Shown: piece after piece, positions 360 to 7,342 of the stretch | How the letters are laid out: every line of letters begins with the position of its first letter | Position numbering within the stretch: position 1 is the stretch's first letter | IMG/VR virus record: IMGVR_UViG_3300040801_000659 | Span: 1-38,355 of that record | Strand: one strand, 5' to 3' | DNA from: a virus | DNA length: 38,355 nt | Made by a program: the position numbers and the translations under genes | The notes under the pieces: model-generated | What the model was told of the DNA's origin: nothing | The model's database searches: none | Seen by the model: only the letters and a program-made list of their open reading frames with translations

Positions 360-629
360 TTACTCGGTTTCTGACCTTAATTTACCAAACTTTATCTTCC
401 TGTCCTTGCGGTTCAGCTTACCCATAGCAGAATAGAACGCTTCTATGTATTCAGGCTTCTCCTCGTCAAACCTGTACTTACGGCTTGCCTCCCTGTACCC
501 CTTCAATATCCCCATCCCGTGGTCGGGTCGGTCATCTCCACACATAAAGTCTGCAAAGTGCCGGGTAATGTGAGCCATCACATATACCTCCAACTCTGTA
601 AATGCTATTGGATATTTCTTTTGTTTCAT
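360..629 (-). CDS. Hypothetical 89-aa protein
   Basis: Product begins MKQKKYPIAFTELEVYV. It is soluble, basic and probably helical, with no signal peptide or membrane segment. A central stretch with FADFMCGDDRPDHGMG and a following Arg/Lys-rich half are the only notable features. The start is fixed by an ATGA overlap (626-629) with the stop of the DUF7666 gene upstream, so the two are probably translationally coupled. It is the last gene of the leftward operon before the 215-359 gap. I do not recognise the family. Confidence 0.7.
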   Translation of the reverse strand: MKQKKYPIAFTELEVYVMAHITRHFADFMCGDDRPDHGMGILKGYREASRKYRFDEEKPEYIEAFYSAMGKLNRKDRKIKFGKLRSETE

Positions 630-1387
630 GAATACTTACTTATTTTACTCCACTTGCTTTCTGTATAGCCAGGAAGCGTGTTAACGTTACGGAAATCATG
701 AGCCTTCACCTCCTTTAAAACAGTCATATACTTCCTGTAAAACTGCATTAAACTCATGCCTGTTTTCACATTAAAGCAACAGCAGTTATCTTTTTCTCCT
801 ATAAATGAGGTATAGTTAAACACGCCAACAGAGTAAGAGCCATAATTATAAATACCGCTGTTGCCTGAGCCTCTGTTGTATGAGCCGCTGTTGTCTGAGC
901 CTCTGTTGTCTGAGCCTCTGTTGTATGAGCCCATGTTGTATGAGCCGCTGTTGTCTGAGCCTCTGTTGTCTGAGCCTCTGTTGGATGAGCCGCTGTTGGA
1001 TGAGCCGCTGTTGTATGAGCCCATGTTGTATGAGCCTCTGTTGGATGAGCCCATGTTGTATGAGCCGCTGTTGTATGAGGTAAACAAGTTAAGTAAATCC
1101 AAAACTTCAGGCAATTCAAGTCTTCGTATTATCTTAAGTTCAGAACATACCGTCTTGTCTTCCTCGTCTATAATATTACCGCTACCCTCTACCTCGTAAA
1201 CGGGATTTTTGTAATCAAACCCGTAATAATTATAACAGTCTTTTAGCTCTTTGCAGAAGTGAAAACCAGTATTACACATGGATATATTACCATCATGCTT
1301 GTAGGATTTGCCTTCTTCATACTTAAACCCACGACACGTTGAGTCGGGATTCATTACCTTGTAACCTTTAATTTTTTGTGCGCTCAT
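626..1387 (-). CDS. DUF7666-like protein with C-terminal pentapeptide-repeat array
   Basis: The first ~95 residues (KIKGYKVMNPDSTCRGFKY..., then GFHFCKELKDCYNYY) look like the phage-associated DUF7666 domain, whose function is unknown. Next come about 18 five-residue units of the form (Y/S/D)N(S/M/R)GS, like the NxGxx repeats of the Pentapeptide_2 type, which would form a right-handed quadrilateral beta-helix. A C-terminal domain of ~60 residues follows (MQFYRKYMTVLKEV). ATG 1387 (MSAQKIKG) is preferred over ATG 1408 because it begins at the domain edge, follows an A-rich stretch, and halves the overlap with the upstream gene. The role is unknown; pentapeptide proteins can mimic DNA or act as protein scaffolds. 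The repeat number may vary by slippage. Confidence 0.75.
   Translation of the reverse strand: MSAQKIKGYKVMNPDSTCRGFKYEEGKSYKHDGNISMCNTGFHFCKELKDCYNYYGFDYKNPVYEVEGSGNIIDEEDKTVCSELKIIRRLELPEVLDLLNLFTSYNSGSYNMGSSNRGSYNMGSYNSGSSNSGSSNRGSDNRGSDNSGSYNMGSYNRGSDNRGSDNSGSYNRGSGNSGIYNYGSYSVGVFNYTSFIGEKDNCCCFNVKTGMSLMQFYRKYMTVLKEVKAHDFRNVNTLPGYTESKWSKISKYS
851..1075 (-). repeat. Fifteen 15-bp tandem repeats inside the DUF7666 gene
   Basis: On the plus strand the unit reads close to TGAGCC(G/T)CTGTTG(T/G), with changes mostly in two positions. Fifteen in-register copies give 225 bp, and three weaker units continue to about 806. Each unit encodes one XNxGS pentapeptide, so gain or loss of a unit keeps the frame. 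The near identity at DNA level is greater than protein conservation alone would need, which suggests recent expansion or gene conversion. Confidence 0.85.
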
Positions 1388-1571
1388 TGTGTTTCTGTTT
1401 TGTTTCATTTTTAGTGACTTTCGGAATTACTTCTACCTCTGCCCATGCCTGAAGGTGAACTACCTCATCTCCCTGGGTGCAGTAAGAATACATCCCGTCA
1501 ACGTGGTGAAAGAAATACTCCTCACCCTCGAAAAGTATTCTGATGTTTTGTGGTACTTTGTAAAGTTTCAC
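1368..1571 (-). CDS. Hypothetical 67-aa protein, GTG start
   Basis: The product starts (M)KLYKVPQNIRILFEGEEYFF and has an acidic, beta-rich N-terminal two thirds and a basic tail (KNETKQKHNERTKN). The start is a GTG at 1571 that overlaps the TGA of the zinc-ribbon gene upstream (GTGA), which is good evidence for coupled translation. Its 3' end overlaps the DUF7666 gene by 20 bp. I do not recognise the family; it is probably a small soluble phage accessory protein. Confidence 0.65.
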   Translation of the reverse strand: MKLYKVPQNIRILFEGEEYFFHHVDGMYSYCTQGDEVVHLQAWAEVEVIPKVTKNETKQKHNERTKN

Positions 1572-2995: not shown

Positions 2996-3724
2996 TTATT
3001 CATTTCCTATGTTGTTAAAGCGTTTTCGTAATGAGTCCGGCATCGGGGTTGCAGTCTTTGAAGGTTTACCGTAGTCCTTCGGGACTGGTGGTGCTGCGTT
3101 CGTCCTGGAGGCCGTCACTGAAGACTTTATTTTTAACTTGCCGTCCGCTAAGTCGCGTCGTGCAAAAGTGCGTATGGTAGCTAACCAGTCTTTACGCATC
3201 TCTCCCTTGCTGTCGCTCCAGTCCATTGCAGCTTGAAAGTAGTATTTATAGTTTGCTGTTTTTAAGTCGTCCGTTCTTTCAAATGCTTCTTTTACCTGTT
3301 CAAGTGTTAAACCAGAATTCTTCATTAAACATTTTTTTGCGCGCGGAGTAGTACTTACATTTCTATTTACATCTTCATTTTCATTTTCATTTTCCATATG
3401 GGACTCCATATGTGTCTCCATATGTGTCTCCATATGGGAGCTTTTACTTTTGAAGTTTTTTCTTCTACTCTCACAATACTTAGTACGTTTTACAGTCTCC
3501 TCTTCGAGACGAGGGTTGTAGAAGTTACCCTGCTCGTCCCTGGTAAACTTCTCAATTAAGTCCTCGTCACCCTCCGCAATTTTATTAAACTCCTTCGCTT
3601 TAATACGTCCTTTCTGGTGCTGGTAGCACATTAAACGAATGTATTTACCAACCTGTTCGTCGGACATTAAATACGTCCCGGTGAGAAAGTCTGAACTGTA
3701 AAATAAAAAAGCGGGGTCTTTCAT
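2996..3724 (-). CDS. Replisome-organizer-like replication protein (DUF1376-like)
   Basis: 242 aa. Residues 1-75 (MKDPAFLFYSSDFLTGTYLM, then DEQVGKYIRLMCYQHQKG) look like the winged-helix N-terminal domain of DUF1376/phage replisome organizer proteins, which bind the phage origin. Residues ~97-118 form a repetitive linker (HMET x2, HMES, then ENENENED). The C-terminal part (YKYYFQAAMDWSDS...WLATIRTFARRD) resembles the conserved C-terminal motif of these initiators, thought to contact helicase or loader. The start forms ATGA with the stop of the 3721-4272 gene. The linker is encoded by a 12-bp repeat array that may itself be the origin, as in lambda O. Confidence 0.75.
   Translation of the reverse strand: MKDPAFLFYSSDFLTGTYLMSDEQVGKYIRLMCYQHQKGRIKAKEFNKIAEGDEDLIEKFTRDEQGNFYNPRLEEETVKRTKYCESRRKNFKSKSSHMETHMETHMESHMENENENEDVNRNVSTTPRAKKCLMKNSGLTLEQVKEAFERTDDLKTANYKYYFQAAMDWSDSKGEMRKDWLATIRTFARRDLADGKLKIKSSVTASRTNAAPPVPKDYGKPSKTATPMPDSLRKRFNNIGNE
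3375..3436. repeat. Tandem CATATG repeats next to an AT-rich tract; candidate origin iterons
   Basis: Four CATATG palindromes start at 3395, 3407, 3419 and 3431, exactly 12 bp apart, in units close to CCATATGTGTCT. They are flanked on the low-coordinate side by repeated ATTTTC (3375-3394), which is AT-rich and easily melted. The array lies in the middle of the replisome-organizer-like gene, the position of the lambda origin within gene O. The repeat is plain; its role as origin is inferred. Confidence 0.6.
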
Positions 3725-4272
3725 GGTTTATATATAAATATCGGTTTGTTATTCTTGTCAAATGTAGTCCATGATACAACATAAAATTCTGCTTGCCCGT
3801 TTTGGTTGATGCCTGTATGCTTTGTAGTACATTCTCCAATATCAATTAACTCAATTATATCCTCTGTTTTAGCTACGGCAAACGACAATAAAGATTCTTC
3901 TTCATCTAAATAGGCCTGCATGGTGTAATAAGGATAAAACAATTCTCCCCCACTTTCAATAGCTTCTTTTCTCTTTTGATATTCTGTTTTAACTCCACTT
4001 TCACGACTCTTTCTTACGGTAAATGTGTTCCAGCTTTTTTTACATTTCGGTTGTATTCTACTTGCTAATCCTCCCATCCCTGTGGAGTTAGAAAAAAATG
4101 CATCCACCCCAACATTTACATCTAACATATACGCTAACTCCTCGGTACTATTAGCTTCAACACTTGTAACGGTTTTAAACTTATTGTACCTTTGAAGTAA
4201 AGGCTTTACTAACTCCTCAAAATGCCTTGCGGTATCACTTAAACAATCCTTAAATTTCCTTCCTGCATCCAC
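3721..4272 (-). CDS. Hypothetical protein, possible PD-(D/E)XK-type nuclease
   Basis: 183 aa, soluble. A core region reads DVNVGVDAFFSN (D57) followed by GLASRIQPKCK (Q74-x-K76), which fits the D...(D/E/Q)xK active-site spacing of PD-(D/E)XK nucleases, and then FTVRKSRESGVKTEYQKR. These features match a family of uncharacterised phage proteins I recall only loosely. It overlaps the DNA methyltransferase gene by 23 bp, so a modification/cleavage pairing is imaginable, but a target-recognition domain is not visible. The stop overlaps the next start as ATGA. The nuclease assignment is inferred and weak. Confidence 0.5.
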   Translation of the reverse strand: MDAGRKFKDCLSDTARHFEELVKPLLQRYNKFKTVTSVEANSTEELAYMLDVNVGVDAFFSNSTGMGGLASRIQPKCKKSWNTFTVRKSRESGVKTEYQKRKEAIESGGELFYPYYTMQAYLDEEESLLSFAVAKTEDIIELIDIGECTTKHTGINQNGQAEFYVVSWTTFDKNNKPIFIYKP

Positions 4273-5329
4273 GTTTTTCAGCTATTTGTATTGCGTCTTC
4301 ATCTATATCACATCCGGCAGCAAAACGACTGTATTCACTCGCTGCTAATAAGAAAGTACCAGTACACGCAAAGGGATCTATAACTTTGTCCCCCGGTTTG
4401 GTTGTGTGTGTTATTAACCTTTCAGCTAACTTGTCTGGTTTCTGCCAAGTATGGTATCTATCACCTATGCGCCCATCAGGTGCATTAATATCCTGGACTG
4501 AAAACATTTCATTTGTTATTCTATTGTCCAACGGTAAAGATGTTTCTTTATATAGGTGAAGTATTACCTGATAGTTTAAATTGTATTTCATCTTTGGAGT
4601 TTGCCCTAATGTATTACGATAAGTCCAAATTAAAGGGTTATCTACTATCCAATCAGTTTCTAATAAATACCCCAAATAAGTATACATTTCAATAGGGTAA
4701 GCACCTATGCATATAAAAGCCCTGCCGGTATCTTTCACCTTTGAGAGCGCGTCATATAACCAAGTGTCAAGAAATGAGGGCAAGTCTTCAATATCGGTTG
4801 AGTATGGGGGATCAGTTATAAGTAAGTCAATACTTTTATCTTCATACCTCGTCAAAAATTGCGTACAATCTTCATTATATATAGAAGGTGCTTTTGCCTT
4901 TCTTTCTGCATCTCGTTCGGCTTGTGCCTCATCTATTTCTTTAGCTTTTATAGCCTCTCGTAAAGCAGACACGCTCCAACGTTGTTCAACCGCCTCCCTT
5001 AAAAAATACTCTTGCTGTTCTGGCGAGAGTTTAGCGACTTCATGGTGGTGTGAATAAGGCAATTCGTTTAGACGTCTAAACCTTTTAATAGCATTGCAAA
5101 CATAAACATATGTTTTCAACGTCTGCTTCTCTATCCCCGTAAGCTCTGCCACCCTGTCGTAAATGCCGCGCTGAATGTATCCCTTGCCCTCACCTTCAAG
5201 AATTTTATCACCTATAAAAAACTGTACGTGTCTTTCAATAGTGCCTAAATTAATAAGCTGAGACTCCCATTCTTGTCTCGAATTAGCCTCTATCCTCAAA
5301 GGTAAGCTATCTTGTGTTTGTGTCTCCAT
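4250..5329 (-). CDS. DNA N6-adenine/N4-cytosine methyltransferase with N-terminal ParB-like HTH
   Basis: 359 aa. Residues ~20-135 form a helical domain (YDRVAELTGIEKQTLKTYVY, HHHEVAKLSPEQQ) like ParB/KorB-type or DUF3102 helix-turn-helix regions. The catalytic domain has motif IV DPPY (173-176), QKP (296-298, in HTWQKPDKLAERLI) and the SAM-binding motif I DPFACTGT (318-325). This order, IV before X/I, marks the beta class of amino-methyltransferases. It probably methylates phage DNA in the cytoplasm, either to evade host restriction or to mark the origin; its HTH domain may supply specificity. The start overlaps the stop of the upstream small ORF as TAATG. Confidence 0.9.
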   Translation of the reverse strand: METQTQDSLPLRIEANSRQEWESQLINLGTIERHVQFFIGDKILEGEGKGYIQRGIYDRVAELTGIEKQTLKTYVYVCNAIKRFRRLNELPYSHHHEVAKLSPEQQEYFLREAVEQRWSVSALREAIKAKEIDEAQAERDAERKAKAPSIYNEDCTQFLTRYEDKSIDLLITDPPYSTDIEDLPSFLDTWLYDALSKVKDTGRAFICIGAYPIEMYTYLGYLLETDWIVDNPLIWTYRNTLGQTPKMKYNLNYQVILHLYKETSLPLDNRITNEMFSVQDINAPDGRIGDRYHTWQKPDKLAERLITHTTKPGDKVIDPFACTGTFLLAASEYSRFAAGCDIDEDAIQIAEKRGCRKEI

Positions 5330-5481
5330 TAATTCAATGATGTTTTAATATATTCTTCTAACCGTATTTCGTTAAGGTAGAAGTCCGTAATTAAGAATCC
5401 CCCGTTTTCTAAACAATTAAAATCAGACTCCCAAGTATCGGACTCTACCATCCGCAGATCCTTCTTACCCCTGTATAGCAT
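5329..5481 (-). CDS. Small acidic protein, 50 aa
   Basis: MLYRGKKDLRMVESDTWESD..., ending EEYIKTSLN. The TAA forms TAATG with the methyltransferase start, and the 5' end overlaps the upstream gene by 17 bp, so it fills an otherwise empty gap in the operon. An internal in-frame ATG at 5451 would give a 40-aa form. No family recognised; it could be a coupling ORF or a small regulator of the methyltransferase. Confidence 0.55.
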   Translation of the reverse strand: MLYRGKKDLRMVESDTWESDFNCLENGGFLITDFYLNEIRLEEYIKTSLN

Positions 5482-5692
5482 TTTTAATAGCAGCTCTTAT
5501 CTCTGTTATTAACTCGCTTTTGTTCTTCGCATACCTGTCCCAGTACCATATATAACTCCCGGTTGTCTGCGTTAACTCATTGTGTTTTGCAAGGTAGTCG
5601 ACTTTGACAGCGTCAAGTACAATTTTGCCGTCCGCGTCATTTACATTTTCGTCACCCGTAAGCGGGTACATTTCTAAAATTTCTATCTCCAT
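5465..5692 (-). CDS. Hypothetical acidic 75-aa protein, first gene after the structured RNA
   Basis: The product begins MEIEILEMYPLTGDENVNDA and ends IRAAIKNAIQG. ATG 5692 is preferred over the in-frame GTG at 5713, which would lie inside the terminator-like stem at 5711-5720. It is acidic and probably alpha/beta; no family recognised. It is the first gene of the leftward replication operon after promoter 5811-5839 and the 113-nt RNA, so its expression probably depends on read-through of that structure. Confidence 0.65.
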   Translation of the reverse strand: MEIEILEMYPLTGDENVNDADGKIVLDAVKVDYLAKHNELTQTTGSYIWYWDRYAKNKSELITEIRAAIKNAIQG

Positions 5693-5693
5693 A

Positions 5694-5806
5694 CTAAAAA
5701 AATTAAAGCCCACCAGGGGGTGGTAACGTTAGCACTTAGAAAAGTGGTAAGTCCCCCCGGTGAGCTTGTATTAATAATTAATTTGTGCATTTCGCTAACG
5801 TTACCC
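5694..5806 (-). ncRNA. Candidate structured leader or small RNA with interleaved stems and U-tract
   Basis: Read on the minus strand. Stem A pairs 5805-5794 (GGTAACGTTAGC) with 5733-5722, 12 perfect base pairs. Stem B pairs 5762-5753 (CACCGGGGGG) with 5720-5711 (CCCCCTGGTG), 10 pairs including one G-U. A small hairpin CACTT-TTCT-AAGTG occupies 5746-5733. The order A-B-A'-B' means A and B form either a pseudoknot or two alternative folds. Stem B is followed by GGCTTTAATTTTTTT, as in an intrinsic terminator, and then by ATG 5692. The expected start of transcription (about 5806-5804) coincides with the first base of stem A. It may be an attenuating leader or an independent RNA. No known Rfam family comes to mind. 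Confidence 0.55.
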
Positions 5807-5810
5807 AATA

Positions 5811-5840
5811 CAAATATAGTAATTTATTTTATAATTCAAA
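5811..5840 (-). promoter_or_regulatory. Bacteroidetes-type promoter for the structured RNA and replication operon
   Basis: On the minus strand: TTTG (5840-5837), 18 nt, TATATTTG (5818-5811), matching the Bacteroidetes -33 TTTG / -7 TAnnTTTG pattern. The spacer is two bases shorter than in the five other promoters noted here. The -33 TTTG is the end of the T-tract of the upstream terminator, so the two elements overlap. The predicted +1 is at 5806-5804, at the start of stem A. Confidence 0.75.
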
Positions 5841-5976
5841 AAAATGGGGGTAGGACTTTTTGAACAAACAAAACAAAACAAACGCCTAACTGCCTACCCC
5901 CGGAGTTATACAGGGGTACTTAGGTTTTTGGACTTCTGCCTTTCGGTACAAGCCTCACTCAACCATATACCCCTAT
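5838..5976 (-). terminator. Terminator with alternative upstream hairpins (attenuator-like)
   Basis: On the minus strand GGGGGTAGG (5901-5893) pairs with CCTACCCCC (5854-5846), followed by A and seven T (5845-5838): an intrinsic terminator with a long 38-nt loop. A competing hairpin pairs 5918-5912 with 5901-5895 (plus 5924-5920 with 5889-5885), and an earlier one pairs 5976-5967 with 5919-5910. Each excludes its neighbour, which is the 1:2, 2:3, 3:4 logic of an attenuator. It ends the SSB-like operon. No leader peptide is evident. Confidence 0.6.
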
Positions 5977-5980
5977 TTTT

Positions 5981-6232
5981 TTAAAAAGGTAAATCAGACT
6001 TATCTTCTTCGCTCAACTCCTGGTTCTGCTTCACAAGTATTTTAGCGTTACCCAGAATAGTCCCTTTGTTGCCAGCTTCGCGCTCCTCTTTAGTGGTTTC
6101 TTCGACTATCATGTAGTCGCTGTGTTCGCTGTTGGGTGTCTCAATGAGGACTGCATTTAGGTACACTCCCTTTTCACCCTTAAACAGCTTGTCTTTGTCA
6201 ATTTTCTTAACGTCAATTTGTAACTTAATCAT
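5981..6232 (-). CDS. Small SSB-like protein with DLPF C-terminal tip
   Basis: 83 aa, MIKLQIDVKKIDKDKLFKGE..., beta-rich, with an acidic tail ending EEDKSDLPF. That tip resembles the C-terminal peptide of single-stranded DNA-binding proteins, which recruits host SSB partners. Bacteroidetes phages often carry small proteins of this kind beside replication genes. It may bind ssDNA or only mimic the SSB tail; an OB fold cannot be confirmed by eye. The start forms ATGA with the 41-aa ORF upstream. It precedes the attenuator-like terminator. Confidence 0.6.
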   Translation of the reverse strand: MIKLQIDVKKIDKDKLFKGEKGVYLNAVLIETPNSEHSDYMIVEETTKEEREAGNKGTILGNAKILVKQNQELSEEDKSDLPF

Positions 6233-6665: not shown

Positions 6666-6697
6666 AAAAAAAACACCCCCTGCCGAAACAGAGGGTG
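6666..6697 (-). terminator. Intrinsic terminator after the HNH gene
   Basis: On the minus strand CACCCTCTG (6697-6689), loop TTTCGG, CAGGGGGTG (6682-6674), then eight T (6673-6666). The stem has 9 pairs with one G-T. It lies 20 bp after the HNH stop and about 20 bp before the next promoter, so it separates the lysis/exonuclease/HNH transcripts from the SSB-like operon. Confidence 0.9.
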
Positions 6698-6717: not shown

Positions 6718-7224
6718 CTAAACCCATGCCCAATTTCTACCAGTCTTTATGTGAAAAATAGACTGTTTAGTTACGCCATATTTTTTAGAAATAACGCCAA
6801 GACTGATCCCTTTTGAAATAAGTTGTTTTATTTTAACAACGTCCTTTTCTGTTATTTTAGAAGCCCAGCATCTCGATCCATTGCAAAAATTAATCTTAGA
6901 AACGTCTTTGAGTCCATTGTCAAAAGCATGTTTGTTGTTTTCTGAATGCGTGACCCATTCTAGGTTTTCAATAGAGTTATTTAATTTATCTCCGTCCTTA
7001 TGGTTTATGCAGGGTTTATTATCAGGGTTTGGTATAAACGCCAAAGCAATTAGCCTATGAAGTTTGAATGTTTTGTGTTTCCCGTTGTAAACCGATAACA
7101 CTTTGTACCCGGTTTTTCCTTTCACCGTTTTTAAAATATTCCCAGTCTGTATGTTTCTTGCCCTGGCATAATTACTAATTTGATACTTACCCTCGTAACC
7201 ATCAATATCTTTCCATTTTTCCAT
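6718..7224 (-). CDS. HNH homing endonuclease with NUMOD4 and C-terminal HTH
   Basis: 168 aa from ATG 7224. Residues 1-30 (MEKWKDIDGYEGKYQISNY) are a NUMOD4 DNA-binding motif. The centre carries an HNH_3 domain (LHRLIALAFIPNP, CINHKDGDKLNNSIENLEWV) with the His-Asn-His nuclease core. The C-terminus (SLGVISKKYGVTKQSIFHIK) is a helix-turn-helix. Free-standing genes of this type spread by cutting alleles that lack them. The longer frame to 7314 would run through the promoter, so the domain-edge ATG is preferred. It has its own promoter, a structured leader and a strong terminator, as expected of a mobile cassette. Confidence 0.9.
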   Translation of the reverse strand: MEKWKDIDGYEGKYQISNYARARNIQTGNILKTVKGKTGYKVLSVYNGKHKTFKLHRLIALAFIPNPDNKPCINHKDGDKLNNSIENLEWVTHSENNKHAFDNGLKDVSKINFCNGSRCWASKITEKDVVKIKQLISKGISLGVISKKYGVTKQSIFHIKTGRNWAWV

Positions 7225-7311
7225 AAAAAATATCCTCACGCTTTCCCCGTGGCGGCGGGTACTAACGCAAGGATTTAATAAGTTTATTAGAGCCCGCCAA
7301 CTCATAATATA

Positions 7312-7342
7312 CAAATTTATATTTTATTTTTTGAATATGCAA
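7312..7342 (-). promoter_or_regulatory. Promoter of the HNH gene, with structured 5' leader
   Basis: On the minus strand TTG (7342-7340), 20 nt, TAAATTTG (7319-7312). The predicted leader is about 80 nt; in it GGCGGG (7298-7293) can pair with CCCGCC (7259-7254) around a 33-nt loop. Such leaders can restrict translation of homing endonucleases. The promoter sits just after the exonuclease stop at 7359. Confidence 0.75.

Follow-up and report, generated by a model that had tools for sequence, protein, structure and literature searches.

Transcription attenuators of the trp type are built around three alternative helices, of which the third (3:4) is a terminator. In plasmids of the pT181 and pIP501 type, attenuators at replication genes are driven by an antisense RNA made from the other strand. 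In the Gifsy-1 prophage, the IsrK locus has its own promoter, and transcription from one start yields both a short RNA that ends at a terminator and a longer read-through mRNA. By experiment, IsrK acts in trans on this longer transcript, which is translationally inactive until refolded (PMC4825925). The same paper describes how the satellite phage P4 combines RNA-RNA pairing with premature termination before its replication genes (CI RNA, seqA/seqC), using a processed RNA that acts in trans and two outlying targets (PMC4825925).

The DNA analysed here (the window, 38,355 nucleotides) is a whole virus record, IMGVR_UViG_3300040801_000659, in which nearly all genes lie on the minus strand and promoters are of the Bacteroidota type, with the consensus TTTG ... 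TAnnTTTG (Table 1). Two of its leader RNAs belong to a recurring and apparently unlisted class of phage leader RNAs, for which the comparative evidence is strong. In this class a TAnnTTTG promoter is followed by an RNA of 80-145 nt, in which 6-9 nt of the 5′ hairpin loop are complementary to a second loop, that of a terminator-like hairpin ending, in most members, 0-25 nt before a start codon.

By analogy, IsrK and the P4 CI RNA would be the closest functional parallels. IsrK resembles the leaders in its own promoter, its pair of short and read-through transcripts from one start and its prophage locus, and the inactivity of its mRNA is counted as a further likeness; yet its action in trans is experimental, whereas the leaders are known from sequence and have loop-loop complementarity within one RNA as their hallmark. 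P4 resembles them in coupling RNA pairing to termination ahead of replication genes but, unlike P4 with its outlying targets, the leaders show no excess of loop copies. A P4-like immunity was rejected on this ground (6 extra loop copies within 1.5 kb, against 12 for reversed k-mers) and because the element occurs in phages from a study that reports the isolation of 38 virulent phages (PMC7077304). The plasmid attenuators also have a terminator just before a replication gene and use hairpin loops as contact points; their attenuation is driven by RNA from the opposite strand, while the pairing in the leaders lies within one RNA. DUF805b RNA (RF02914) is similar in that a hairpin loop appears, by eye, to pair with the following segment just before a gene, but it is conserved in sequence, only 35 nt long and without its own TAnnTTTG promoter in the three places read. 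It matches two of the loci analysed for the class, at L207:785-819 (Flavobacterium phage morran9-1) and L174:1239-1271 (a viral contig), both before a gene, and by sequence pattern a place near 5380 in L168.

At Rfam's curated thresholds, the window and 25 loci returned only tRNA and DUF805b, none at an element. Below threshold, the highest-scoring match located at an element is to cyano-S1 (27.6 bits, threshold 39.9, E 0.14), which is regarded as chance together with sub-threshold snoRNA, coronavirus UTR and miRNA matches. Open-licence literature on kissing loops with phage terminators, on phages of Bacteroidetes/Bacteroidota and on structured RNAs (including PMC8040213 and PMC2864571) does not describe the class in the excerpts available.

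Table 1. Features of the window discussed in the text.
Feature	Coordinates	Strand	Basis or remark
SSB-like gene, 83 aa, C-terminal DLPF	5981-6232	minus	ORF; stop TAA 5983-5981
Segment 1, ATAGGGGTAT, 5′ arm of hairpin 1:2	5967-5976	minus	sequence and fold
Segment 2, GTACCCCTGT, 3′ arm of hairpin 1:2	5910-5919	minus	sequence and fold; 5918-5911 alternatively pairs with 5902-5895
Segment 3, GGGGGTAGG, 5′ arm of terminator 3:4	5901-5893	minus	sequence and fold; 5902-5895 is the 2:3 partner
Segment 4, CCTACCCCC, 3′ arm of terminator 3:4	5846-5854	minus	sequence and fold
T7 tract of terminator 3:4	5838-5844	minus	sequence
Bacteroidota-type promoter: TTTG 5840-5837, 18 nt, TATATTTG 5818-5811	5811-5840	minus	pattern
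Leader RNA, variant kissing-loop copy	5696-5806	minus	pairing; fold z -3.62
75-aa gene	5465-5692	minus	ORF; ATG 3 nt past the end of the leader's terminator-like hairpin and T-tract
DNA methyltransferase gene	4250-5329	minus	downstream of the 75-aa gene and one short frame
MKDPAF replication-type gene	2996-3724	minus	after the DNA methyltransferase gene
Promoter -7 element TAAATTTG of second leader	7312-7319	minus	pattern
Second leader RNA	7225-7304	minus	both hairpins and loop complementarity of the class present
NUMOD4/HNH endonuclease gene	6718-7224	minus	Pfam PF07463 and PF13392; ATG directly behind T-tract
Ordinary terminator behind HNH gene	6666-6697	minus	sequence/fold

The region directly upstream of the first leader, 5976-5838, lies behind a gene provisionally labelled SSB-like for its acidic tail and after the naming in the earlier note; the gene has no Pfam match, weakly matches a PHROG of unknown function (E 0.00042) and has relatives in four viral contigs, whose best segments share 57-61% protein identity. 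The earlier note saw here an attenuator-like set of three mutually exclusive hairpins. All four segments are present on the minus strand where it had placed them, apart from small coordinate corrections, segment 3 being real but extending to 5893 instead of 5895. Helix 1:2 comprises 10 pairs, two of them G-U. Helix 3:4 comprises 9 pairs (7 G-C) around an unusually long loop of 38 nt, and with its G+C-rich stem followed by A and seven T it has the predicted form of an intrinsic terminator, as had been proposed. The overlap with the -33 element of the next promoter, whose TTTG (5840-5837) is supplied in part by the T7 tract (5844-5838), is likewise as described. Mutual exclusivity holds in part. 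An 8-bp helix 2:3 excludes both 1:2 and 3:4, and as 2:3 and 3:4 both use segment 3 the arrangement has the antiterminator of an attenuator; 1:2 and 3:4, on the other hand, coexist in the best fold.

Folding of 5985-5836 gives -47.7, compared with -34.75 for shuffles (z -3.21; 2 of 200 shuffles equally good). A comparison of the alternative states, which the earlier note had suggested as a check, cuts both ways. The lowest-energy fold of 5983-5838 holds 1:2 and 3:4 together at -47.3 kcal/mol, and under constrained folding the best fold containing 2:3 reaches -42.1 kcal/mol, about 5 worse. When segment 1 is masked, the 2:3 and 3:4 states are tied (-32.0 and -32.3 kcal/mol); in truncated transcripts masked in this way 2:3 is present down to 5850, and the best fold turns to 3:4 at 5846. 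The 2:3 overlap itself is weakly above chance, at least 7 contiguous pairs arising in 12.4% of trials with both arms shuffled and in 1.3% with random arms of 67% G+C. This complementarity is largely a consequence of base composition, the 5′ arms of both hairpins being rich in G and their 3′ arms rich in C.

The transcription switch proposed in the earlier note would work through ribosomes finishing the SSB-like gene: masking of segment 1 would let 2:3 form and delay 3:4, so that read-through reports ssb translation. No plausible trigger is apparent other than a ribosome at the stop codon, which could mask segment 1 because the stop codon sits 4 nt before it; the tie between 2:3 and 3:4 and the presence of 2:3 in transcripts truncated down to 5850 fit this reading. 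With segment 1 free, however, 1:2 plus 3:4 leads by the margin given above, 3:4 wins again as soon as segment 4 emerges, the hairpins are absent behind ssb in all four relatives, and any read-through would immediately face a second terminator-like leader. A switch is possible but improbable. The conservation of segments 1 and 2, which the earlier note had named as a test, was not found in any of the four ssb relatives (57-61% identity), nor were G/C-rich hairpins like 1:2 and 3:4 behind their ssb genes; as no close relative is among them, non-conservation does not refute the switch. Sensitive blastn of 6010-5601 against the viral loci collected by then returned no matching element.

The region resembles trp-type attenuators in its alternative helices 1:2, 2:3 and 3:4, the last a terminator, but differs from them in showing neither a leader peptide nor an obvious sensor and in its position behind a gene rather than in a 5′ leader. 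No leader peptide was seen by eye in the 140 nt of 5976-5838, and Rfam gave no match there at threshold, with weak, chance-like matches below it; a protein site might still act as sensor. Membership of the kissing-loop class was considered and rejected for this region: the 3:4 loop finds at most a 6-nt complement upstream (CTTTTT), a length that 72% of shuffled loops reach, no TAnnTTTG lies before the region and no ATG directly behind.

The helices of 5976-5838 are real and most likely form an ordinary boundary terminator of the ssb unit. Terminator 3:4 would set the 3′ boundary of this transcription unit, hairpin 1:2 would hold the terminator stem about 80 nt behind the ssb stop codon, and reuse of the T-tract as the TTTG of the next promoter would mark the border between units. 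In E. coli, the terminator tR2 is reported to be repressed when close behind a gene and to have full strength at a distance (PMC4824070); given this effect, the spacing by 1:2 means that an ordinary role suffices. Cultured Lillamyvirus and Muminvirus phages likewise have a terminator immediately ahead of such a promoter, in their case a simple hairpin. Behind another ssb-like gene, L004:3290-3325 carries AGCC[TTGAGC]GGGCT, whose TTGAG is complementary to a later CTCAA; where the window has its hairpins, this locus may thus form a small pseudoknot.

In the leader that follows, the 5′ segment GGTAACGTTAGC (5805-5794) is complementary over 12 nt to GCTAACGTTACC (5733-5722), which sits inside the loop of a terminator-like hairpin (5767-5754/5720-5706) with a T-rich tail to 5696. 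The pairing of the class is present, with no clear 5′ hairpin. The 75-aa gene behind it found no relative when used as search bait. The second leader has a 5′ hairpin, GAG[TTGGCGGG]CTC, at 7303-7290, and a terminator-like stem (7274-7264/7243-7232) with an inner hairpin, CCCG[CCGCCA]CGGG, at 7259-7246. Its TGGCGG (7299-7294) is the kissing partner of CCGCCA (7255-7250), and its tail ATTTTTT (7231-7225) touches the ATG of the NUMOD4/HNH gene. This leader and the terminator at 6697-6666 frame the HNH gene as a self-contained cassette. The class was first seen upstream of related methyltransferase genes in other phages, and a later scan gave this second copy. No element was found at 10 loci with relatives of the HNH gene, and a collection of genomes by means of the methyltransferase alignment yielded only one locus. 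Elsewhere in the window, a 260-aa frame at 626-1408 (minus strand) is a low-complexity array with many repeats of the GSYN/GSDN/GSSN type.

Recurrence was measured by requiring at least 6 nt of complementarity between two loops, one in a 5′ hairpin and the other in a terminator-like hairpin, a strict rule that drops A+T-only and hairpin-less pairings. With redundant loci removed, but with the loci where the motif was first noticed by eye included, 12 strict matches were found at 782 TAnnTTTG sites (51 records, 597,101 bases), whereas the 8,803 sites defined by 11 decoy patterns yielded 6 matches, all re-detections of the same elements. An independent set of 80 loci, picked by replication gene and without reference to the motif (678,610 bases), gave 9 strict matches, 8 of them unique, at 955 sites. 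Twelve decoy patterns on these loci (9,636 sites) gave 4 matches away from the strict ones, at 3 loci; on inspection they proved to be the same element type directly before the same gene, two with a normal TATCTTTG promoter that the scan had missed.

A promoter-blind count points the same way. Among 52 unique terminator-like hairpins within 25 nt of an ATG, again after removal of redundant loci and with those first noticed by eye included, 27 find a kissing partner in a hairpin further upstream and 25 have none under the rule; when upstream regions were swapped between genes, the mean was 1.84 partnered hairpins and the maximum 5 (50 permutations). The 27 are not all independent, given the near-duplicates L130/L141 and L159/L199, and comprise 20 distinct loop strings. 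All 33 listed cases held on re-checking (32 distinct loop sequences); the GCGTAGGA case in L067 was spotted by eye and then checked. A 23-base promoter string retrieved 40 contig stretches, every one with the element, and their loop pairs are TGTGCG (19), TGCAGG (13) and TAGTGG (8), two different ones occurring on one contig; copies within this one phage group thus differ in their loops.

Several members use the whole of a small apical loop, e.g. GGTT[TGTGCG]AACC with GGAG[CGCACA]CTCC. Ordinary folding, which cannot represent a loop-loop contact, gives both hairpins in the five hairpin-bearing examples folded. Use of the whole apical loop is a geometry that should permit both stems and the contact together, which makes a mutually exclusive switch unlikely for the class. 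Frames within the elements, read by eye, revealed no common leader peptide. A terminator before the promoter was tried as a class rule and rejected, being frequent but not general (present at 10 of 28 promoters of elements and at 34 of 305 control sites). Strict matches were absent from the scanned regions of phi18:1, phi38:1 (1-50,000) and Tenacibaculum phage JQ (1-22,859).

The genes behind the elements encode ParB-like/N6-N4 methyltransferases, primase-helicase-like and replication-initiator-like proteins, an HNH nuclease and small proteins without assigned function, several of these names coming from a reading of the translations. The leaders at L048:9902-9962 and L049:7522-7605 have Shine-Dalgarno-like GGAGG/AAGGAG before the ATG, and possibly indicate hosts outside Bacteroidota. 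Two further arrangements were also seen. At L005:3265-3355 a long inverted repeat encloses the TACCTTTG promoter and has a T-tract at the end of its other arm, so that one palindrome serves both terminator and promoter; at L002:3880-3985 a GGTTCGAATCC-type T-arm, like the 3′ part of a tRNA, stands at an intergenic end and is followed by T8.

In cultured Flavobacterium phages, the element is carried by morran9-1, lillamy9-1, snusmum6-1, mumin6-1, elemoA 11-9C, elemoC 13-1C and elemoF 6-3D, where it precedes small genes; replication genes follow in the two examined further, morran9-1 and elemoA. Their loops are GTGAGAAG, GTGAGACG, GTGGAACG (twice), GTGAGATG, TGAGAGC and GTGGAGG, and in every case the second loop contains the exact complement. 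An alignment of orthologous sites from four phages (three distinct rows) has standard pairs at 8 of 8 positions of the kissing helix, 3 of them changed on both sides; over the whole structure in the same alignment, 4 pairs are changed on both sides, against 0-1 in slid controls. Annotated small ORFs overlap the leader in morran9-1 (gp042, L207:2104-2247) and elemoA 11-9C (phanotate21, L208:1787-1906), and may be spurious.

The reading preferred here, with a probability put slightly above even, is that the leader acts in cis to lock early and replication genes, by premature termination and start-site occlusion. Through the loop-loop contact the leader would adopt a closed, compact fold, in which termination at the 3′ hairpin is favoured and the start site is buried. 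The gene behind it, be it a DNA methyltransferase, replication initiator, primase-helicase or HNH gene, would be off by default, and the lock would be relieved when some factor opens the fold or when polymerase reads through. Start-site occlusion is weakened as a component by those members in which 39-44 nt separate the T-tract from the ATG.

Two serious rivals draw on the same anatomy. The leaders may mainly be stable small RNAs, whose contact would hold the two RNA ends together as protection from RNases and whose closeness to genes would simply follow from compact genomes. Their own promoter and, in most members, a terminator-like 3′ end suit this idea, as do a 5′ segment that starts near the expected transcription start (4-23 nt past the TTTG) and the absence of excess loop copies nearby; it is nonetheless rather unlikely, most members sitting close before the ATG of early or replication genes. 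Alternatively, the leader could be a 5′ mRNA cap and translation device instead of a terminator, the T-rich tail loading ribosomes and the folded leader protecting the mRNA. The short distance to the ATG agrees with this, and Bacteroidia ribosomes fail to recognise Shine-Dalgarno sequences, according to one study (PMC9976891). But terminators usually take just this form, a stem with T4-9 beginning within 0-3 nt of it, and a stable stem beside the ATG would hinder initiation, leaving this device an unlikely explanation. Doubtful to a still greater degree is a self-addressed riboregulator, in which the short terminated RNA would open or close its own read-through mRNA by loop-loop exchange in trans; units would count their own transcripts, and loops would have diverged into orthogonal codes between units and phages.

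Taken alone, the proposed switch at 5976-5838 is a small item, and the adjoining leader class is the larger find. It is a compact RNA design of Bacteroidota-type phages, with loop sequences that vary widely yet remain mutually complementary, and if the cis-acting lock is true, it controls entry into DNA replication and modification genes. As cultured Flavobacterium phages carry the class, it is directly open to RNA mapping and to tests with swapped loops.
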